IMG/VR virus record: IMGVR_UViG_3300036985_001460
Span: 1 to 23,633 of that record
From: a virus
Strand: one strand, 5' to 3'
DNA length: 23,633 bases
The notes under the pieces are model-generated. The model was not told where the DNA came from. It saw only the letters and a program-made list of their open reading frames with translations, and ran no database searches. Position 1 is the first letter of the stretch, and each line of letters opens with the position of its first letter. A program made the position numbers and the translations under genes. Shown in pieces: positions 656 through 23,633 of this stretch.

Positions 656-1204
656 CTATAAATCGTTTGCATTAGTAATTAGATAGCCGTTTAATTTAAC
701 AACTGCACCCTCGAGCACTAAATCTCGCCCAAATGCGCGGTAGTCTAGATTTAGATAGCCGTTTAATTTAACAACTGCACCCTCGAGCACTAAATCTCGC
801 CCAAATGCGCGGTAGTCTAGATAGTGCAACAGAGGCTCCGGTATACCATAGCAATCAGTCATTAGGCCATAAGCATAGTCATCTAAGCTCTCAGACGACA
901 CACAAACATCGTCATAGCTATCTATTGCTGCCTGTATGCCTTTACCACAATCGAGCAAAAACTCGACCGCTGTTAACTGTTCCTCATCCATGCCGTCTAA
1001 TACTTCAGCAATCTCAAAAGACTCTTCAATGTTAGTCTGATTGACTTTCATGCCAGCAAAAATAACACCATCAAAATCAGCATCAAGTAAGCCTATCTCG
1101 TATCCTTCTGCCCCTGATGCTATTACGCCAGCTTCATACTCGGCCAAGTTAGAAAACTGAAAGCCTTTGTAATCGCCATTATATGGTTGTGCGTATAGTT
1201 TCAT
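656..1204 (-). CDS. ardA: ArdA-like antirestriction protein with duplicated C-terminal segment
   Basis: ArdA proteins are acidic dimers that mimic DNA and block type I restriction-modification enzymes; phages and plasmids make them early after entry. This 182-aa product has about 33 Asp/Glu against 10 Lys/Arg. It carries the C-terminal signature region typical of the family, IPEPLLHYLDYRAFGRDL at residues 121-138, equivalent to the usual '(I/L)PE...Y(I/F)DYEAxARDL' motif. The motif region occurs twice: residues 129-151 are repeated exactly at 153-175 because of a perfect 72-bp DNA duplication (679-822). Without it the protein would be 158 aa, near the usual size of about 165. ATG at 1204-1202 follows an AGGAGATAAAAG ribosome site. 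It is the first gene of the leftward cluster. Family assignment is from remembered motifs, not a search. Confidence 0.82.
   Translation of the reverse strand: MKLYAQPYNGDYKGFQFSNLAEYEAGVIASGAEGYEIGLLDADFDGVIFAGMKVNQTNIEESFEIAEVLDGMDEEQLTAVEFLLDCGKGIQAAIDSYDDVCVSSESLDDYAYGLMTDCYGIPEPLLHYLDYRAFGRDLVLEGAVVKLNGYLNLDYRAFGRDLVLEGAVVKLNGYLITNANDL
679..822. repeat. Perfect 72-bp tandem duplication inside ardA
   Basis: Bases 679-750 and 751-822 are identical over all 72 positions and directly adjacent. The length is a multiple of three, so the reading frame of the ArdA-like gene is kept and 24 codons are repeated. TAGAT occurs at both ends of each copy, a short homology that could help slippage. Zero divergence, including at synonymous sites, implies either a very recent event or an assembly artefact. 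Confidence 0.97.
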
Positions 1205-2037: not shown

Positions 2038-2066
2038 TTTACAGCAGCTTTATTTTGTGCTAGTAT
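2038..2066 (+). promoter_or_regulatory. Candidate late promoter, extended -10
   Basis: TTTACA (2038-2043, 5/6 match to the -35 consensus), a 17-base spacer and TAGTAT (2061-2066) preceded by TGC, the extended -10 signature, form the best sigma70-type promoter seen in the window. Initiation is expected near 2073. It points at the late operon, but two hairpins and a terminator lie between it and the first gene. AACAAT at 2079-2084 resembles the -10-like pause element found downstream of lambda pR'. Confidence 0.55.
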
Positions 2067-2132
2067 GCTTGGTAGGCTAACAATAATAATAAAGCCATGT
2101 AGTAGCTTGCCATTTAGCATGCCTGCTGCCTT

Positions 2133-2153
2133 GTAACAGTACCCTACTGTTAC
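2133..2153. other. Perfect 9-bp hairpin
   Basis: GTAACAGTA (2133-2141) and TACTGTTAC (2145-2153) are exact complements around a CCC loop. Only six bases separate it from the terminator hairpin that follows, so the two would stack as tandem hairpins in RNA. Confidence 0.75.
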
Positions 2154-2159
2154 TGCCTA

Positions 2160-2197
2160 CAGCCTTACTGTCCCTCCCAGTAAGGCTGCCTTTTATT
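2160..2197 (+). terminator. Rho-independent terminator
   Basis: CAGCCTTACTG (2160-2170) pairs perfectly with CAGTAAGGCTG (2178-2188), an 11-bp stem with a 7-base loop, followed by CC and TTTTATT (2191-2197). The T-run lies on the plus side only, so it stops rightward transcription just before the tailspike gene. Confidence 0.85.
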
Positions 2198-2221
2198 CTG
2201 CTCCCACTAACAGGTATGGTA

Positions 2222-4393
2222 ATGGCCAAAACTACTCTTACAGACGAATCTAGTGGCTTTCAAACCACAACACAAAGAAATGCCAACTATACTGCTATTG
2301 AAAATGCTTTCGAGAACACCCTGTCTAGGGATGGGACTGGCCCTAATGCTATGGGCGCTAACTTTGACATGAACAGCTACCGCATTATAAACCTGCCTGC
2401 ACCTGTTGCTAACAGTGATGCTGCTAGGTGGATTGATGTGGCAGCTGCTATAGGCTTAAGTACAGCTGTACCTAACCAGACTGGTAATGGTGGGAGGGTA
2501 TTAACGACTAATGGCACTGCAATGACTTGGCAGAATGCCCCTGTTGCTGTTGATACAGTAGCAGATATGAAAGCCCTTACTGGCCTTGTGAATGGCGCTT
2601 ACGTGTACTGTGGCGGTTATTATGCTAAAGGGGACAAAGGGGCTGGGACTTTCTATTATAACAGCGCTAGTGCTGCTACAGCGGATAATGGCAAGTACAT
2701 TACACCTAATACCATGGCTGGTAGGTTTGTACGTATTATAACAAGTATGTATATACCGCAGATGTTTGGTGCTAAGGGTGACGGGGTTACAGATGACACT
2801 GTTGCAATACAGAACTGCTGTAACGCTGCAAACCCAGGCTACGCCAATAACGGCTTTAGCGCTTCTTTCAGCGTAGACTACATCCACTTCCCCGCTGGTA
2901 TTTACCGTACCACTGGCACAATTACTGTATATGGCTCTCACACTGTAACAGGTGAAAGGGCTAGCTTTAAGCCTGATGCAGGTGTTACCGTCATTACAGT
3001 AGCCAGCGCATACCAGAATAGGTTTGATAATTTGGTATTTATTGGTGGCGCTAAAGCCTTATATATTGATACGGGCAACGTGGATACATCTACAATCACG
3101 ATTGAAAACTGTGAATTCCAAGACCAGACTGTTGCACACATAGAGACGTCTGCTGCCAGTGCATCTACACTCATGCGCATGAGTCACTGTAAGCTATACA
3201 GTAACAGTTCAAACGCTACATTTATCGGTGTTGACCTTAAGGGTGGCTCATTGCACCTCACAGCATGCTGGATGACTACAGCTCAGACTGGTTTCCGAAA
3301 TGGTGACGGTGTGACTGGGCAAGGGGGAAATTTAATACTCGACAACCTGTTTGGTGTGCCTAGATACGCTGGCAATGGTGGTGTGACCTGGATTAATAAC
3401 ACCTGCAACGTGGAAATGCGTAGTTGCCGCTTTGGTGGTGAAGGTGATGGGCTTATTATGACATGTAACCCGCCTGTAACAGCCACTGGCACCTATGTTA
3501 TCATTGACAAGTGTGCGCTATTCCCTGGTGACCAACCGTTGGTTTCTTTCAACTACATGCCGAATGATTTTCAGTTTACCAACAATCTAGGCTCTGACTC
3601 TGGTTGGGACAAGGGCTTCCTGTTTAATGCAGGCTCTACTACGACGTTCGGTCCTATTAGAGGCTCTCACAACACATTTATTGTCAGGGACAACTCGCCC
3701 ACTTCAGCACCCAATTACCAAGGCTCTACTGAAGGTATGTCTAAGACGCATGCCCTTAATAATGAGCATGTAAAGCCGTCTAACACCCTTTTTACAGCTG
3801 ACAAAGTAGCCCAGTACATAACGAATGGTGGTGGGGGTTGGAGTGGTAATAATTCTAATGTCACTGTTACCACGCCTATTACTAACGGTTTTGGTGCTGC
3901 TGTAAGAGCTATAACAGGGTCTTCTGCTTCTTATAACGGCGCATTCTCTGAAACATACACAACTGGGCTAAACGGCTTAGGTACCGGTATGTACACTGTA
4001 GTTGTGAATGTTAACATTACTACTCAACATATCACCTCAGTTAATTTATACGCTGGTACTAATGAGAAAGGGTTTAAATTAGGTAAAGGTCGCCATGTAA
4101 TTTGCTTACCTACTTACTACGTAGCTGGTACAGATGCCCAACTTACAGGCTATGGTTGTTACAATATGTCTAATGCGCAAGTGGCGGCTTTTGGGCCTTT
4201 GCGTGTATTTGCTGGTCTAGTGGAAGTTAAAACTGAGAATACTATTGTCTATGGGAGTGCAGCCCCAATTACTTTACGTTGGGAACTAGGCGATAGAGTG
4301 ATCAATTCAGCACCTACTGTGGGACAGCCTAAATCTTGGGTATGTAGTACAGCTGGCGTGCCGGGTACTTGGACGAGTGAAGGGAATTTATAG
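2222..4393 (+). CDS. Tailspike protein, pectate-lyase-type beta-helix
   Basis: This is the receptor-binding and probably polysaccharide-cleaving spike of the tail. Residues 1-75 form a virion-attachment head common in marine and environmental podoviruses (TTLTDESSGF, then TLSRDGTGPNAMGANFDMNS). Residues ~108-175 look like the neck found ahead of spike beta-helices. FGAKGDGVTDDTVAIQ at about residues 182-197 is the classic opening of the Pectate_lyase_3 right-handed beta-helix, which continues to about residue 500. The last 200 residues look like a separate beta-rich C-terminal domain. ATG 2216 is possible, but AGGT (2212-2215) abuts it; the second ATG at 2222 has proper spacing, so I use that (723 aa). 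It is the first late gene, just after the terminator. Confidence 0.88.
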   Translation: MAKTTLTDESSGFQTTTQRNANYTAIENAFENTLSRDGTGPNAMGANFDMNSYRIINLPAPVANSDAARWIDVAAAIGLSTAVPNQTGNGGRVLTTNGTAMTWQNAPVAVDTVADMKALTGLVNGAYVYCGGYYAKGDKGAGTFYYNSASAATADNGKYITPNTMAGRFVRIITSMYIPQMFGAKGDGVTDDTVAIQNCCNAANPGYANNGFSASFSVDYIHFPAGIYRTTGTITVYGSHTVTGERASFKPDAGVTVITVASAYQNRFDNLVFIGGAKALYIDTGNVDTSTITIENCEFQDQTVAHIETSAASASTLMRMSHCKLYSNSSNATFIGVDLKGGSLHLTACWMTTAQTGFRNGDGVTGQGGNLILDNLFGVPRYAGNGGVTWINNTCNVEMRSCRFGGEGDGLIMTCNPPVTATGTYVIIDKCALFPGDQPLVSFNYMPNDFQFTNNLGSDSGWDKGFLFNAGSTTTFGPIRGSHNTFIVRDNSPTSAPNYQGSTEGMSKTHALNNEHVKPSNTLFTADKVAQYITNGGGGWSGNNSNVTVTTPITNGFGAAVRAITGSSASYNGAFSETYTTGLNGLGTGMYTVVVNVNITTQHITSVNLYAGTNEKGFKLGKGRHVICLPTYYVAGTDAQLTGYGCYNMSNAQVAAFGPLRVFAGLVEVKTENTIVYGSAAPITLRWELGDRVINSAPTVGQPKSWVCSTAGVPGTWTSEGNL

Positions 4394-4401
4394 GGGGTTT
4401 T

Positions 4402-4797
4402 GTGGAGAATTTACTTGTTGATGTATTGAAAGGTGGTAGTCTATTTGGTGCCGCTGCTGTTGTTGTGCTTGCAAGCTTTACTTCTCGCCTTATTTACTCA
4501 TTGTATAAAGGGGAAAGGTCAAAGATTGACAGGTCAATTAAGGTAGCATTAGAGGACCAAAAGTTACTTAATAAAGAAATTGAAGGTTTAATTGCCATGT
4601 CCAGTGATAACAAACAAGCTATAAGCATACTACTGTCTAAATATGAACAACTAAAGGAAGACCAAGCTGGTTTACAAGCAAGGATTACTCTGTTAGACAA
4701 CAGGGTATCAGAGCTAGGCAAGGACATGCATACAGGCTTTTCTGATATAAAGACCTTACTTATACAGTTATTTGGGCAGAGGCGTAAAGATGGGTGA
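4402..4797 (+). CDS. Single-helix membrane protein with coiled coil, possible holin-like lysis protein
   Basis: This 131-aa protein starts with GTG at 4402, well placed after AGGGGG (4392-4396); no closer ATG exists. Residues ~13-34 are a hydrophobic membrane helix (LFGAAAVVVLASF), followed by a basic stretch (KGERSKIDR) and a long charged coiled-coil-like region to about residue 110. It lies between the tail fibre and small terminase genes, exactly where T7 has its type II holin (gene 17.5). A lysis role is therefore plausible from position. The basic residues after the helix favour a cytoplasmic C-terminus, which argues against an Rz-type inner spanin. Function is inferred, not shown; the family is not recognised with certainty. 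Confidence 0.65.
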   Translation: MENLLVDVLKGGSLFGAAAVVVLASFTSRLIYSLYKGERSKIDRSIKVALEDQKLLNKEIEGLIAMSSDNKQAISILLSKYEQLKEDQAGLQARITLLDNRVSELGKDMHTGFSDIKTLLIQLFGQRRKDG

Positions 4798-6932: not shown

Positions 6933-8686
6933 GTCAAGTAGAATGCCTAACAGGCCTAGCCAATCCTGACCACAAAGCTAAGCATGTAACTGATATGTGG
7001 ACTAAGTTTAAGACGTCTAGGCAGTGCTTTGAAGATGAAGTGGCAGAGTGCCGTGAATACGTGTATGCAACAAACACTAAGCAGACCAGTAATGCGAAGT
7101 TGCCTTGGAAAAACAACACCCACCTACCTAAGTTATGCCAGATTATGGATAACTTGCATGCTAGTTACTTCGAGTCACTATTCCCTAACGAGGAATGGGT
7201 TAAATGGGACGCCTACAGTGCCGATGCTGCCGATAAGACGAAGGTGCAGGCCATTACTGCCTACATGGCAAACAAACTGCGTGCAAGTGGCTTTAAGGAC
7301 GTTGTGAGCGATTTATTGCTAGACTTTATTTTATGGGGTAACTGTGTTGCTACCTGTGAGTACGTAGAAGATTATTATATTGATGACGAAACAGGTGAAA
7401 AGGTTATTACCTACATAGGCCCAAGAGCTAGGCGTGTACCTATGGCAGACATAGTATGGGATCCTACAGGAGTAAGCTTTGCTGCTAGCCCTAAAGTTGT
7501 AAGGTATGTTAAGACTTTAGGTGACTTACATGCAGAAGCCTTATCAGAACCTGAGAATTCTTACAAGCATGACATTGTGCGTAAAGCCTTAGCTAACAGA
7601 TCTTTCCACCAAGGATCTAGCAGAACAGAACTAAGTATGTTTGACAGTATGGTTGTTGATGGCTTTGGTAGCTTTGGTATGTACATGAGATCAGGCCTAG
7701 TGGAAATATTAGAATTCCATGGTGACATGTATGACCTTGAAACAGGACTATTCCTTAAGAACCACATTATAACTGTGATAGATAGGTGTGACCTTGTACG
7801 TTGTGAACCTAACCCTAGCTGGGTTGGTAAGTCCTACTTTGTACATGCACCTTGGCGGCAAAGGGCTGGCAGTACGTACGGGCAAAGCCCGCTCGTTAAC
7901 CTAATAGGTATGCAGTACAGAATAGACCACCTTGAGAATATTAGGGCTGACTTGTTTGACCTTATGGCAATGCCCCCTATTAAAGTGCGTGGCTTGGTTG
8001 ATAACTTTAAGTTTGGGCCTGGGGAAAAGATTATACTGCCTGACCCTGACTCAGATGTAGACTTCCTTCGTGTAGATGGCACAGCACTGCAAGCTGACAG
8101 CCAAATAGCAAACCTACTTGCCTTAATGGAAGAGTTTGCAGGGATGCCTAAAGAGGAACTAGGGTTCCGTACCCCTGGGGAAAAGACAGCCTTTGAGGTT
8201 GGGGAAATGAAGCGTGCACGTAACAAGCTGCCACAACAGAAGATTAAGTTATTTGAGCAGAAAGTACTTGAACCTTTGCTTAACAGTATGTTAGAATTAG
8301 CGCGAAGGAATATTAACGCTATAGACACTATTAGTGTACTAGATACTGATACAGGGGCTTTAGAGTTCCTAAGTATTACCAAAGCAGACCTTACAGCAAA
8401 AGGAAAAATAAGAGCTGTAGGAGCTGACCACTATGCAATGCGCAACAATGTTTTACAGAATTACCTGGGCTTTAGACAGGCATTTGCAGCAGATCCGGCC
8501 GTTATGTCACACGTATCCGGCTTAGCCGAAGCCAAGCTTTTTGAAGAACTTTTACAGCTAGGCCGCTACCAGTTAATGACACCTAACGTCAGGATATCAG
8601 AGCAAGCAGAAACACAAATGCTTGGCATGCAGTACCAAGAAAACATGCAAGTAGCACAAGAACAAGAATTACCTGATGGTATGTAA
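6929..8686 (+). CDS. Portal (head-tail connector) protein
   Basis: The portal is a dodecameric ring at one capsid vertex through which DNA enters and leaves; it binds the terminase and later the tail. At 585 aa it is in the range for podovirus portals. The N-terminal part carries a pattern typical of this family (NTHLPKLCQIMDNLHASYFESLFP at about residues 63-86). Further on come a portal-core-like stretch (RQRAGSTYGQSPLVNLIGMQYRID, about 310-333) and a Gln/Glu-rich helical C-terminus. It follows terL with a 4-base ATGA overlap and a GGAGGAG ribosome site some 12 bases upstream. Position between terL and scaffold fits. Confidence 0.9.
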   Translation: MSQVECLTGLANPDHKAKHVTDMWTKFKTSRQCFEDEVAECREYVYATNTKQTSNAKLPWKNNTHLPKLCQIMDNLHASYFESLFPNEEWVKWDAYSADAADKTKVQAITAYMANKLRASGFKDVVSDLLLDFILWGNCVATCEYVEDYYIDDETGEKVITYIGPRARRVPMADIVWDPTGVSFAASPKVVRYVKTLGDLHAEALSEPENSYKHDIVRKALANRSFHQGSSRTELSMFDSMVVDGFGSFGMYMRSGLVEILEFHGDMYDLETGLFLKNHIITVIDRCDLVRCEPNPSWVGKSYFVHAPWRQRAGSTYGQSPLVNLIGMQYRIDHLENIRADLFDLMAMPPIKVRGLVDNFKFGPGEKIILPDPDSDVDFLRVDGTALQADSQIANLLALMEEFAGMPKEELGFRTPGEKTAFEVGEMKRARNKLPQQKIKLFEQKVLEPLLNSMLELARRNINAIDTISVLDTDTGALEFLSITKADLTAKGKIRAVGADHYAMRNNVLQNYLGFRQAFAADPAVMSHVSGLAEAKLFEELLQLGRYQLMTPNVRISEQAETQMLGMQYQENMQVAQEQELPDGM

Positions 8687-9880: not shown

Positions 9881-10867
9881 ATGATTAGATCAGCTGACAC
9901 CCATGTACGGGCTACAATATACTCAGAAGAGATTAAAAGGCTCTTAATGGCAGACTTAATGGCTGGCAAATGGTGTAAATGGATTACCCCTGACTTTGGG
10001 CATGGTACCACTTACAGTGTACCTTCTATAGGGCAACCTATGGTTAAGGACTGGAATGAAAATATTGACACCACTTCCAGCTCAAGGGATATTGGTGAAT
10101 TCACCATGATTGTTGATGAAGATGTCTATTCACAAGACACGATCACTGACAAAGCAAAAGAAGACTCCTACTTCCTTGACCAGCAGTACGGCAAGTCACA
10201 GTTTGTAGCAGACCAAGTAAGAGTACTTAATGAGTACTTAGAAACATCCCTGCTTAAAGCTGCTGGCCCTGGTGCTAAGTCTGGTGGTGGGCAAACGGTT
10301 GCTAGCCCTAACAGAATTAATGGTGCTGACCACCGTTTCAACGGTACAGGCGCTAGCCGTGTTATTACCATTAATGACTTCCACTATGCAAGGTCTGCCT
10401 TATCAAGAGCTAACGTGCCTAACCAAGGTTTAATAGCTGTTGTTGACGAATCTGTTGCTTATGAAATCAGCAAAATTGCTACTAACGTACTGTCCCCAGT
10501 GCCTATGTACAACGATGTTATTACAAGTGGTGTAGTTGGTGCTAATAGCCAGTTCCGCTTTAACATTGCAGGCTTTGACGTATATGTATCTCAATACCTG
10601 TACCAGCTAGCTGCTTCTGAAGCTATTACGCATGCTGGTGCTTCTGTTACCGCTCAAGTAGGTGATGTACAAAACCTATTATTTGCTGTACCTTCTGCTG
10701 ATTTTGCACCTTTCCGTGGTGTAATGCGTAGAGCACCAAGAACAGAAATGGAACGTGCTGCTCTTAAAGGTGGCGGTATGGAAACAATGGTTACGACAAT
10801 GCGTTTCGGTGTAAAACTCTATAGACCTGAAAACCTTGTTGCCATTAACACTAACGCTGCACTATAA
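9881..10867 (+). CDS. Major capsid protein
   Basis: This is the main shell protein, expected to have the HK97 fold as in T7 gp10. It is 328 aa, typical for the T7-like group (about 345). It has an E-loop- and spine-helix-like acidic N-terminal third (DEDVYSQDTITDKAKEDSY), a beta-rich middle and a closing stretch (MRFGVKLYRPENLVAI) that recalls the end of podovirus coat proteins. It follows the scaffold gene after a 24-base gap containing ATGAGG, a ribosome site 5 bases before ATG. No slippery site for a minor capsid form is visible at the end. Identity rests on position, size and composition. Confidence 0.85.
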   Translation: MIRSADTHVRATIYSEEIKRLLMADLMAGKWCKWITPDFGHGTTYSVPSIGQPMVKDWNENIDTTSSSRDIGEFTMIVDEDVYSQDTITDKAKEDSYFLDQQYGKSQFVADQVRVLNEYLETSLLKAAGPGAKSGGGQTVASPNRINGADHRFNGTGASRVITINDFHYARSALSRANVPNQGLIAVVDESVAYEISKIATNVLSPVPMYNDVITSGVVGANSQFRFNIAGFDVYVSQYLYQLAASEAITHAGASVTAQVGDVQNLLFAVPSADFAPFRGVMRRAPRTEMERAALKGGGMETMVTTMRFGVKLYRPENLVAINTNAAL

Positions 10868-13122: not shown

Positions 13123-15383
13123 TGCCTGCACAGTACCTGCTACCGTTTGTAAAAGGTCTTAATACTGACCAAGGTGTGATAACAGGGGATAGCGGGTTTA
13201 CCCGTGATGAGTCTAACGTTGTCTTGCAAAAGGATGGATCTAGGAAAGTAAGGCTAGGCCTGGACTATGAGTCCAGTGTACTGCAAGGCCTTACTGGGAC
13301 AGCCATTAATACAACTGCCTTCACAAGCTACACATGGGAAGCTGCCGGGAACAAAGACAAGACATTCATAGTAATGCAGCAAGGCTATAAATTGCATTTC
13401 TTTGACGCTGGATCTAGCAGTATTATCGCTGGCTTTCACAGTACAATAGAATTAACAACTACACCTTACTATAATACTACAACAGCCAGTGACTGCCGTG
13501 TAGAGTATGCACCTGGCAATGGCAGTCTGTTTATTGCTGGCCTTAAGTTTGAGCCTTGCAGGATTGGCTACAACGGCACTGCTCTTGATAAGGTTGATAT
13601 AGTCATTGAGACACGTGACTATTATGGCATCCCTGACGGTGTAGAGCCTGACACTAGGCCAACCAGCCTGTCAAACGATAACAAGTATAACCTTTTTAAT
13701 CAGGGTTGGTATCATAAAGCTAATAATCGCAGTGGTACTGTAGTTAACGTCATTGATGAGTTCTATACAAAAGAACTAGATTTTCCTGCTAAGATTTACC
13801 AGTGGTGGCGTGGCAAGCGTGAAGCTAACTATGGCCAGTTCTTCTCTGAAGATTTACGGAACATCTACTCAGGCCGCCTAGAAGCCCCTAAAGGCCATTT
13901 TGTAATTGATGTATTCAGACGTAATTACAGTAGGTCTGTGAAAACAAATACCACTACAAAGCAAGAATTTTTCGGTAACAGCGTTAACGGGCCTGCTGCA
14001 TTTGCTTATGTAAGCAAAGATGAAGAACGTAACAGGCCAGCAGCTGTAGCTTGGTATGCAGGCAGGCTGTTTTGGGCTGGTGCTATTTCAGATGTTGATG
14101 GTGCTCTAGCTAGCAGTCCTGACTTAACAGGTTACCTGTTCTACAGCCAAACAGTAAGGTCTGAGTTAGACTATGGTAAGTGCTACCAAGAAGCAGACCC
14201 TGCAAGTGAAGAAGATAGCGACCTTGTTGCATCCGATGGCGGTTACATGGTATTCCCAGGTGCAGGCCGTGTGCAAAAGATTGCTGTAATCATGGACAGC
14301 CTTATAGTGATGACTGATAAGCAAGTATTGGCTATAAGGGGTGGCGATGCAGGCTTTACTGCTGAAGAACAACAGTCATACAAAATATTAGATGTTGGCA
14401 TTGCAGGCCCAGGCTGTGCAGTAATAGCTGAAGGTAGCTTATTCTTGTGGGCTAAGGATGGTATTTACAGTTTAGGCTATAACGGGCAGTCAGGCGGCAT
14501 ATCAGCGCAGAACATAAGCTCAGGCAAAATACAAGATTATCTTACCCAAATAAACCCTATACAACAAGCTCATGTGCAGTCAGTGTATGACTCCCTCAAT
14601 AAAAAGGTCAGTTGGTGGTACAATTCTGACACCAGCTTTAATGGCGTACTAGACACAGGGAAGTTGGTCACAGAGCTTAGTTATGATATACTGTTACAGG
14701 CATTCAGTAAGAACGCACTAGCATCAAATAATAATTACCTTGCTACATCACCGTTCTATACAGTAAGCCCGCGTGTTAGCATTACAGCTAACAATGTGAC
14801 TTCAGGAGCTGACACAGTTGTATCAGGTTCTGACAATGTAACTGTAGGTGGTTCAGGTTACAGCTACACAGCTAACAAAGTTTTTATGTTCCTTATCAAT
14901 ACTTCAACAAGTACGCTAGGTGTGTCTTATTACAAGAATACAGCCTACAGAGACTACGGACTAACTACTTACACTGCATTCTTGCAGGGCAACAACGACA
15001 TACTTGGGGACGCAACAAGTAAAAAGTACCCTATATACTTTAGATGTCAATTTAGGCGAACTGAGACTGCTTTCATTAATAATGGGTCAGGCCAGCCTAC
15101 ACTAAACTTCCCTAGTAGCTGCAAGATGCAGGCTAAGTGGGACTATAGCGACTCTGATAACAGCGGGAAGTGGTCTACTGAACAAGAGATCTACCGCTTT
15201 ACTCGTGCTTATATGCCAGGGGCGATAGGCGATACTTTTGATTATGGTCAAGAGGTGATTACAACTAAAACTAAACTACTAGGCACTGGCCGTTCTTTGT
15301 CTATGAAGTTTTCAGCAGTGGCGGGTAAAGGCTTTCATTTACTAGGGTTTGGGTTTGAAGGAGTAGCTAATAATGCGTTATAA
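13122..15383 (+). CDS. Tail tubular protein B-like (nozzle)
   Basis: The 753-aa product is assigned as the T7 gp12-type nozzle that forms the distal tail tube. T7 gp12 is 794 aa. The N-terminus (LLPFVKGLNTDQGVI... then DESNVVLQKDGSRKVRLGLDYE, residues ~6-49) is the characteristic start of environmental podovirus nozzle proteins. The body is beta-rich with many Gly/Ser/Asn/Tyr residues and repeated short blades, consistent with a beta-propeller. Its start codon overlaps the previous stop, with AAGG about 6 bases before it. It ends 11 bases inside the next gene. Confidence 0.82.
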   Translation: MPAQYLLPFVKGLNTDQGVITGDSGFTRDESNVVLQKDGSRKVRLGLDYESSVLQGLTGTAINTTAFTSYTWEAAGNKDKTFIVMQQGYKLHFFDAGSSSIIAGFHSTIELTTTPYYNTTTASDCRVEYAPGNGSLFIAGLKFEPCRIGYNGTALDKVDIVIETRDYYGIPDGVEPDTRPTSLSNDNKYNLFNQGWYHKANNRSGTVVNVIDEFYTKELDFPAKIYQWWRGKREANYGQFFSEDLRNIYSGRLEAPKGHFVIDVFRRNYSRSVKTNTTTKQEFFGNSVNGPAAFAYVSKDEERNRPAAVAWYAGRLFWAGAISDVDGALASSPDLTGYLFYSQTVRSELDYGKCYQEADPASEEDSDLVASDGGYMVFPGAGRVQKIAVIMDSLIVMTDKQVLAIRGGDAGFTAEEQQSYKILDVGIAGPGCAVIAEGSLFLWAKDGIYSLGYNGQSGGISAQNISSGKIQDYLTQINPIQQAHVQSVYDSLNKKVSWWYNSDTSFNGVLDTGKLVTELSYDILLQAFSKNALASNNNYLATSPFYTVSPRVSITANNVTSGADTVVSGSDNVTVGGSGYSYTANKVFMFLINTSTSTLGVSYYKNTAYRDYGLTTYTAFLQGNNDILGDATSKKYPIYFRCQFRRTETAFINNGSGQPTLNFPSSCKMQAKWDYSDSDNSGKWSTEQEIYRFTRAYMPGAIGDTFDYGQEVITTKTKLLGTGRSLSMKFSAVAGKGFHLLGFGFEGVANNAL

Positions 15384-16194: not shown

Positions 16195-19100
16195 ATGTCA
16201 TACTTTGGTGATGAAGTAACGCAAGCTGATGTAGATTACATTTTCAACGACAAGCCTTACAGGCCTGTTGTAGACCTTCGTGAGCAGTTCTATGCTGACC
16301 TAGCCACCAGACAACCACAAGCCTACAGACGCATGCAAGATGAAGCTGCTGTAGGTGTAGATACGACCTACCAGACACTGACTGCTGATGCTACGTCTGA
16401 ACGTAAGATGGCCTTAAACAAAGGCTTGCAAAGTGCCTTATTGGCTGCGCCTGTAGAAGAGGCCCAAGGCATTGTAGACAGCTTTTCTGATAAAGCTAAC
16501 CAACCTTTAACAATGCGTGAAATGTTCTTCGAGCAACAAGGGATTGAGTTAAAGGACGACTTAGAAGTAGCTAGAAACCTGCTGTCTGAAACGTCCGCTA
16601 AAATTCCTACCAACTTAATTAACCGCTCTAAAGCTAGAGCTACAACCAGCCAAATAGGTGCAGGTGCAGACCCTGGCAGCCTTATAGCTGAAGCAGGCAG
16701 GGAACAAGCCTATTTTGAAGGTTCAGACAAACCGGGGCAGCAAGCTTTCATACAAGAAGAGCAGGATATAGCGTCAGCTCAAGGTGGCCTAATAAGGTCA
16801 ATGCCAGCCTTCACTATGGCGTGGATGTCACAAGCTGCTAAAGAAGTAACTGGTGAGCAATCTTACCTTTATGGGAATGCTGTGGAAGCCCTGGCTGCTC
16901 ACATCTACTACAGCCCTGATCGCGCTAAAGCTACAGAAGCAGTTATTACCAGTGTACGTAAGCACAGCGGTCTGCTAGGTGAAAATGAGTTTGATGTAGC
17001 CTCTACACTAGACTTAGTTAATGACTATGTGGGTAAGATTGATGAAGGCACCACTGAAGAGTGGGGTGCTAAACTGCAAAACTTCATGCTTAACACTTTT
17101 GCTATTATAGACTTTGTACCTGACTGGGTGCCTAACTTTAACAAGACCATTAAGACAGCTAAAGCTAACAGTGCAGCAGCCCCTTTAGGGCGTGGTATTG
17201 ACACCCCTTTGGGTGATATAGCTGCAAATGATAAAGCGGCTGGTGACATACTAGCTAGCGCTGTATTGCAAGAACCTAGTGGCCAAGCAGGTAATGTATT
17301 AGGTGTAACTAAAGAGCAAGCTGCTATAAACAGTGTACCGGGCTTTGAGTATGACGGCCTGCGTGTAGCTGGGCAAGATGGCACTAAAGAGCTTAAAGAT
17401 AACGTAGCTGTGGCACTTGCTACTGCTGAGGACATTACACCTGCAAGCTTATACCAGTTTGTAGATGCCGCTAAACAAGAAAAGCAATTAGAAGGTGTGT
17501 TAACACAATTACCTAAAGACGGCCAATTACCGCCTTACCAATCTGACCTTACTTTAAGTGTCTTCAAGAAATCTGATGACGGCTTTTTAAGGTATGGCTC
17601 TGTATATGGTAAAGCAGACGGTTCAAGCTTTGCGTCTTATGACGAGGCTTTAGCAGCTTCACAAGGTATTAGGCAACAGTTCGGTGCTGGCCCTTTTGAG
17701 ACTGAAGGTGTGACTGTACTTGAACGTGTTGGGAGTGGCAATACCTGGTCAACCATTACAGGCGCACCAACTGAAGGTGCAGAGTTTAAAGTGCAGTTAG
17801 ATGTTAAGCAGCGTATGCGTTGGGATACTGACCATGTAATACCTGAAGCGGCTGTAACCCCAGCTTTGTTTGGTACCAGGTACTTTCAGAATATCCACTC
17901 AACGTTATCTAGTGACTATGTTACCGCTCTAACAGTGTCTAATGAACGTGCTTCTAGGCTACAGTCAGACATACTACGTATCAATGAGCCTATGTTTAAG
18001 TTGAACGAGTTTAAGAAGCAAGGTGTACTTAAAGCTATTGTAGACGGTGGGGAACAAGAGCGGGTATTTAACGACACTGAACTTGTGGCTATGTATAAAC
18101 TAGACCAAGACCAAATACATGCCTACCACTCTGAGAGAGCTATGTGGGATGTTATACACCAAATAAAGAACAAAGAAGAGTACACCACCAAACTGTCTGA
18201 AGGTTATGTGCGCCTTAAGTCTGATGCAGACGACGGTACACAGGCTATTGATACCATGGGTAAGGCTGTTGACTTAAGTAACTTCACGGGCGTAGAGAAG
18301 GTCGCTGTGATAGATAGAGGCCAGGTTACTGTTGTAACAAGAGCAGAAGCTGACCAGTTCAAACAGCAAGGCTACCAGGCTTATGCCTTAGCTGACGTGC
18401 ATAATGCGGCTGGTGAGAAGCGCTACAAGTTTATGATGGCTAAGCCTACAGAGCATGTGCAGCCATTGCCTGAGCAGATGCTGCCGTACCGTAAAGGGTA
18501 CTATTACAAAATAAACAAAGGTAAGTACTTTATTGAAAAAGAGTTCCAAGGTGAACTGAATGGTGTTGCTCACAGCTTTAAGCGTGCTGTTGCTATTGCT
18601 GACAGCCCTGCTGCTGCTGAAATGGCAGTTAAGCAAGGCATAGGAACGGGCTACAAGGTAGACGAGAACCTTGTGAACAACCATGACTTCGCTAACTGGA
18701 TTGAAATTAACACGCCTACCACAGGCTACTGGTACTCTGCAAGGCAGCCACAAATGCCTACATACAGTGTGGACATGGCTAACCAATTACAACGTGTGAC
18801 CAGTAAGTCTGAAGACCCTTTGTCTGCGGCAGAAGCTGCTGCTGCTAAAGTTAGTAACTTTGTTGCGTGGCGTGACACAATCAAAACATACGAGCAATTA
18901 CACAAGAACACCTACCCTGAACTTTGGACAAGTGATGGTGCAAGGTCTTTGTACTTAGGAACGCAAGCAGCTGACAACACTGCACGTGTAAGAGCTGCCA
19001 ATGCTATGTTTGAGCACATGACCAGTTTGACAGGCTATGCTAGCCAAGTTGACGCTACTTGGAATAACTGGATGGTGTCTATGGATAAGCTATTCAGTAA

Positions 19101-22708: not shown

Positions 22709-23424
22709 TGCCTACTATAGAATACCAAGGCCAGCAATATGAATTCCCTGATGATGCAAGTGATGATGAAATCTTTGACTTCTTAGGGCAAGATCCTGCT
22801 AATACTGATGATGTCCCTGAACCTTTACTACCTGATGGCACTACTGACTATATAAAGCAGAATGAAGGGTACAGGGCAAGCCCTTATAAAGACAGTTTAG
22901 GTATACGCACCATAGGCTATGGTTTTAACCTACAAGACCAGGCTAACCAGGCACTAGCACAAAGGTTAGGTGTTAAGTTTGACAAGCCTTTGAATACACA
23001 AGATGCAGACAAGCTATTTAAGCACAGTATTATTGCAGCAGAGGACGCTTTACGTAACCTTGACTCCAAGTATGACAATAGGCCAGACGCTGTTAAGAAA
23101 GCTTTACTAGACATGTCCTATAATTTAGGGGCTAACCGTTTAGGTGAGTTTGAAGATATGTTTGCTGCTGTAAAAACAGGTGACTATAAGCAAGCTGGCT
23201 ATGAAGTTATGAAATCTTTATACGCATCCCAACTACCTGTAAGGGCACGTAACAACGCCAAGCTTTTACTGCAAGCAGCCGCTGCAAGGCCTACCGACCA
23301 GCGTTATGCAGCACAACAACCTGCTGCACCCAGCTATAGTGAAGGTGACTATGTTGACGAAGAGGGTAACCAGTTCTACGTAGATTTTGATGGGCAAGTT
23401 AACCTTGCTAGGTACGCACCATGA
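22708..23424 (+). CDS. T4-type lysozyme (GH24) with virion-protein N-terminal extension
   Basis: This enzyme cleaves the glycan strands of peptidoglycan. The catalytic triad of T4 lysozyme is present with exact spacing: Glu53 (NEGYRASPY), Asp62 (KDSLG) and Thr68 (TIGYG), as in T4 Glu11/Asp20/Thr26. The lysozyme fold runs from about residue 46 to 195. Before it lies a 30-residue segment ([23 protein letters not shown]) of a type common at the start of virion structural proteins. After it comes an acidic/aromatic tail. There is no signal peptide. Placed among ejection-protein genes rather than beside a holin, it is probably a virion-associated enzyme that opens the wall at infection; a second role in lysis is possible. 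GAGGAG is 6 bases before the start. Confidence 0.88.
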
Positions 23425-23633
23425 CAGCGCCAATAGGCAATTTGACTAAGATAATATACAAGCAAGGGCTTGACGGGCAAATAGGCCATGTAGGACCTGC
23501 TGGCCCCCAAGGGCCACAAGGTGTGCCTGGGCCACAAGGCCCTGCTGGTACTACGGGTGCTACTGGCCCCCAAGGGCTGCAAGGCTACCCAGGGCCTGTA
23601 GGCCCTGCTGGGTCACAAGGTCCTGTTGGCCCT
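23421..23633 (+). CDS. Collagen-like fibre protein, cut by right window edge
   Basis: The visible 71 codons start with ATG 23421, overlapping the lysozyme stop (ATGA), with AGGT about 8 bases upstream. After a 15-residue N-terminal segment the sequence becomes an uninterrupted Gly-X-Y repeat ([10 protein letters not shown]...) of 18 triplets that runs off the window. Such repeats form triple helices and are used in phage tail or head fibres as stiff trimeric shafts; the part beyond the edge probably carries a receptor-binding tip. It would be a second surface fibre besides the tailspike. The 3' end, size and final domain are not visible. Confidence 0.85.

Follow-up and report, generated by a model that had tools for sequence, protein, structure and literature searches.

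The window analysed here is the whole of a 23,633-nucleotide stretch of viral DNA (IMG/VR record IMGVR_UViG_3300036985_001460). As the terminase of this phage is 45–47% identical to those of SIO1, ICBM2, CRP-5 and MEP401, it was placed with the Zobellviridae, and it also displays the trait of this family that two gene arms diverge from a single hub. The hub and the start of the late operon contain the following features:

1205–2221 (no strand): divergent non-coding hub, with the early arm running left from it and the late operon running right, a layout also found in known Zobellviridae
1843–2037 (no strand): conserved non-coding block adjoining the late promoter, with CCAAGG/CCTTGG-type repeats
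2038–2066 (+): extended -10 promoter, with TTTACA at 2038–2043, a 17-nt spacer, TG at 2058–2059 and TAGTAT at 2061–2066
2073–2196 (+): predicted leader RNA, about 123 nt if the terminator stops transcription
2079–2091 (+): A-rich initially transcribed stretch with the -10-like hexamers AACAAT and AATAAT
2099–2129 (+): leader hairpin 1, kept in relatives although its length differs by 12 nt
2133–2153 (+): leader hairpin 2, of 9 bp
2160–2197 (+): hairpin of the intrinsic terminator type, with an 11-bp stem (2160–2188; -16.6 kcal/mol) followed by a CC spacer and TTTTATT
2222–4393 (+): first gene of the late operon, for a tail fibre/tail spike-like protein

For the first late ORF, the most likely start is the ATG at 2222 (MAKTTL...), not an in-frame ATG at 2216, since the first late genes of relatives likewise begin with MAK. 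The late operon thus begins 25 nt past the T-run, as an earlier sequence-only reading of this DNA had stated.

A related genome, G001 (41,639 bp), is probably complete, because it has identical ends of 141 bp; another contig, G003, is continuous across the joint of these ends. The late genes of G001 form one rightward block of about 24 kb that starts at this leader and ends at a convergent terminator (2220–2237 in G001 coordinates), and its early genes run leftward from the hub. By profile, these include DNA polymerase A, a nuclease, a pyrophosphohydrolase and a RuvC-like resolvase; putative thymidylate synthase, primase-helicase and ribonucleotide reductase genes were assigned by reading the sequence alone. 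The hub is also where the virion DNA of the ICBM phages has its direct terminal repeats. The phage RNA polymerase profile PF00940 gave no match, a search that was uninformative as the control was silent too, and the early arm contains no unassigned ORF of a size fitting an RNA polymerase. SIO1 reportedly has no RNA polymerase (PMC6775973). The phage of the window probably relies on the host RNA polymerase, and both it and G001 are apparently lytic.

Some other genes could be recognized in these genomes. The early arm carries a fragment of an IS6/IS240-type transposase beside the hub (L141 17265–17675, minus strand, G001; PF13610, 3e-24) and a match to an HslV-like peptidase family that overlaps a RuvC-like gene (L141 3823–4332, minus strand, G001; phrog_1040). 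The window encodes an ArdA-like antirestriction protein (656–1204, minus strand; PF07275, 1e-13), the C-terminus of which has a tandem duplication of LDYRAFGRDLVLEGAVVKLNGYL. A collagen-like protein with Gly-Pro-rich repeats follows the internal virion and lysozyme genes (window 23421–23633 and L143 10554–11021).

Conservation of the late promoter and its surroundings

The element is present in five further IMG/VR contigs related to the window. DNA-pattern searches with the promoter, terminator and upstream block retrieved only these five, a search with the exact terminator pattern of the window gave no match, and neither a DNA polymerase query nor the genome contigs added a relative with this hub. 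The extended -10 promoter (TTTACA-17-TAGTAT with TG) postulated in the sequence-only reading was upheld by these comparisons: the segment is 100% identical in each relative compared, and the spacer with its flanks is invariant in all six contigs, including the window. In the window as a whole, promoter-like sites occur about as often as chance would predict (32 observed versus 33.9 in shuffled sequence), so that the evidence for this promoter is its conservation. Its spacing predicts a transcript start at 2073–2074. The promoter scan detected no further promoter in the interval from the terminator to the first late gene, which implies that late transcripts should have to cross the hairpin.

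Compared with L001, L002 and L004, identity is 93–97% in the upstream block and 97% in the terminator, and about 60% in the remainder of the hub outside the conserved elements. Within the unit, conservation is lowest in the leader that separates promoter from terminator, at 82–85% identity and with indels. Fourfold-degenerate sites of the late genes differ by 18–47% from G001 and G003, two more distant relatives, and by 3–10% from the closest relative, G002; judged against the divergence from G001 and G003, the promoter, the upstream block and the terminator are more constrained than silent sites. The conserved promoter-leader-terminator unit ahead of the late operon is confirmed as a real element of the sequence.

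The non-coding block at 1843–2037 matches genes in its conservation. A coding role was rejected, as changes in the only long open frame (1850–2072) are distributed about 5:7:6 over the codon positions. The L002 version of the block contains a 32-nt direct repeat, with the copies 45 nt apart. The block may be a regulator site, a replication origin or a packaging site.

Many other Zobellviridae, including SIO1, ICBM1, P12053L and MEP401, have the same divergent hub with an extended -10 late promoter at the same position, here in the near-consensus form TTGACW-17-TATAAT ahead of the first late gene. This promoter, also seen in L088, L101 and others, is unmarked in those annotations that were consulted. 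It is stronger than that of the window clade but, unlike there, is not followed by a comparable terminator before the first late gene: the best terminators in the other Zobellviridae leaders tested have energies of -2.3 to -5.5 kcal/mol and are equalled by 3–16 of 100 shuffles. A family-wide terminator was therefore rejected; the terminator is a feature of the window clade, and antitermination is not a family-wide need. In L034 (2356–2410) and L031 (2805–2860) the late promoters are embedded in a long inverted repeat that has the -10 element at its centre (CCCGGT...ATATGGTATAATAACCATAT...ACCGGGGG in L034), which suggests an operator for a late regulator in these two relatives.

The predicted leader RNA and the terminator-type hairpin

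The predicted 123-nt transcript folds with -43.1 kcal/mol (z -5.2), a value reached by none of 200 shuffled sequences, and the predicted transcript of L002 (z -4.7) likewise folds better than 200 of 200 shuffles. The three helices are kept while the sequence drifts, with 99% of the cells paired versus 17–63% when the partners are slid. Covariation is thin: among the four distinct leader sequences compared there is a single double change, from U-A to C-G in hairpin 2, and 404 of 500 shuffles reach as much. The paired hairpins of the sequence-only reading are thus real, but there are three of them in tandem, the third being the terminator. The pause-like AACAAT noted there near +7 is indeed present in the window, but its sequence is not conserved, as relatives have AATAAA in its stead and, shortly downstream, AAAAAT; the -10-like hexamers in this A-rich stretch are likely of chance origin.

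Two forms of attenuation were considered and rejected. In relatives, a short frame (MANKNKNA...) begins with an AUG at about +1 that the window lacks, which argues against a leader peptide. Alternative RNA pairing was discarded since the terminator bases pair with probabilities of 0.98–1.0 in the window transcript, where no structure competing with them was seen. No Rfam family matched the leader, the single hit (E 0.52) being far under its gathering score.

Terminator-like sites in general are as common in the window as expected by chance (22 versus 17.3 in shuffles). An 11-bp stem with such a T-rich tail, on the other hand, was found in none of 5000 shuffled leaders and 0.05 times per window when the whole sequence was shuffled and both strands were counted; the real window has one, at 2160–2197. 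Its description as a strong terminator holds for the hairpin, but not for the T-run, which is parted from the stem by CC, is broken by an A and scores below the convergent-end terminator of G001. The CC spacer and interrupted T-run suggest that the terminator may be leaky. CC and T-run are invariant among the contigs. The same scan found only a weak version of the lambda terminator region (-3.1 kcal/mol), which means that its scores are uncalibrated for termination.

Proposed regulated readthrough and its alternatives

In bacteriophage lambda, the late promoter pR' is followed by a short terminated leader (6S RNA) and then by the late operon, which is read with the antiterminator Q. The window and the lambda-type systems (including 21Q and 82Q) have in common a sigma70-type promoter and a promoter-proximal intrinsic terminator directly before the late operon, a correspondence at the sequence level, and the host RNA polymerase that serves lambda is presumed to serve here too. 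The lambda logic proposed in the sequence-only reading stands as far as the order of promoter, leader, terminator and late operon is concerned, given its conservation and the gene order of G001; a pause hexamer conserved in sequence and a recognizable Q protein were not found. In contrast to lambda, the leader has three tandem hairpins, and the phage is an apparently lytic podovirus of another family.

No Q-family protein was found with Pfam, PHROGs and NCBIfam in the window proteins scanned, as the sequence-only reading had reported, or in the complete relative G001. The search for Q-like genes outside the window that it had recommended was equally negative, PF06530 and PF03589 (the Q/Antiterm families) being absent from G001, G002 and G003. 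These searches cover the early arm chiefly in relatives, since that of the window lies mostly outside the contig. The three databases also identified no antiterminator among the early ORFs. In G001, small early ORFs that were left without an assignment, and are candidates for such a gene, lie at 2915–3319, 4343–4582, 7267–7557, 10470–10751, 13383–13589, 13559–13879, 13885–14067 and 18161–18346, each on the minus strand. Structure predictions for two early proteins of no known function (pLDDT 58 and 42) were too low to use. Q proteins diverge widely, and an analogue too diverged for recognition is therefore possible; a Q-type mechanism is plausible.

Two further systems offer parallels. The antiterminator AlpA of Pseudomonas aeruginosa loads at an element between the -35 and -10 of PalpB, downstream of which lies an intrinsic terminator, tB, that is weak and requires NusA (PMC9371919). 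The invariant spacer and offset T-run of the window resemble this arrangement, and the offset T-run would fit a tB-like case; in contrast to PalpB-tB, no AlpA homologue was identified for this phage, and a role of the spacer is putative. GafZ, which acts with GafY at the PgtaT promoter of the Caulobacter gene transfer agent, likewise loads between -35 and -10, and there too an operon of structural genes is controlled by antitermination (PMC11150451). Its terminator lies after the first gene, whereas that of the window precedes the first late gene, and no inverted repeat was identified within the window spacer. The invariant spacer is compatible with, albeit not proof of, an embedded antiterminator binding element.

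We propose, with a probability of about one half, that the element consists of a late promoter and a promoter-proximal terminator at which readthrough is regulated, akin to lambda pR'-tR' or PalpB-tB. We infer promoter firing, termination at the hairpin and regulated readthrough, in the following manner. Host polymerase of the sigma70 type would initiate at the extended -10 promoter (2038–2066) and synthesize some 120 nt of structured leader. In the early phase of infection, a large share of the polymerase would halt at the hairpin (2160–2197), 25 bases ahead of the first late gene, and at later times readthrough into the late operon would be permitted by a phage product made early or by an altered state of the host. 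The likeliest loading site for an antiterminator would be the invariant promoter core. If the hairpin terminates transcription, the late operon can be expressed only by way of readthrough.

The main rival to regulated readthrough is a passive, leaky leader, the hairpins of which would shield the late mRNA at its 5' end or give that end a structure, with the third as a fixed attenuator that only reduces late expression and works without a dedicated antiterminator. The offset and interrupted T-run, the failure to find a Q gene among the window proteins scanned and in relatives, and the late leaders of P12053L and ICBM1, which are structured but have no T-run, are all in keeping with it. A simple protective hairpin, however, has no use for a T-rich tail, and neither the invariance of CC and T-run nor the far better conservation of the terminator than of the remaining leader would be expected of it; we consider this explanation unlikely, though by no means negligible.

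An independent small RNA gene is appreciably less probable. Its product would be the transcript of about 120 nt itself, 6S-like or regulatory, with the late genes mainly read otherwise, and a promoter and a terminator do bracket a strongly folded RNA in six contigs. Against this, the first late gene follows 25 nt past the T-run with no promoter seen between, the leader is less conserved than either promoter or terminator, and it matches no Rfam family. A functional terminator would in any case yield a 6S-like terminated transcript of about 120 nt by default, which is compatible with gating of the late operon.

Least probable is antitermination encoded in the RNA, in which hairpins 1 and 2 would act in cis, like the put RNA of HK022, and let polymerase pass the third hairpin and later stops: two hairpins do lie early in the transcript, between promoter and terminator, and are kept despite sequence drift, much as putL, which follows closely on its promoter, forms two stem-loops in about 70 nt (PMC9378689), but the stems here are simple and not bulged as described for put, the HK022 stretch compared, which may not cover put, gave a best E of 1.2 (not significant), no Rfam family matched, and a constitutive cis-acting antiterminator would leave the terminator without purpose. 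The resemblance to put seen in the sequence-only reading thus has no positive support besides the presence of the hairpins.

For regulated readthrough, a more specific version may tentatively be put forward, with the odds somewhat against it: a podovirus clade without its own RNA polymerase would gate its entire late operon by a promoter-proximal terminator and an antiterminator unrelated in sequence to known Q, AlpA, GafZ and P7 proteins, this device having been gained inside a family that otherwise uses its late promoter alone. In the literature found, no account is given of how late-gene expression is timed in the widespread Zobellviridae and other podoviruses that encode no RNA polymerase. 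The promoter-terminator element provides a concrete, testable switch point and narrows the set of early genes in which a new antiterminator should be sought, and the findings also point to a late promoter that is shared by the family.
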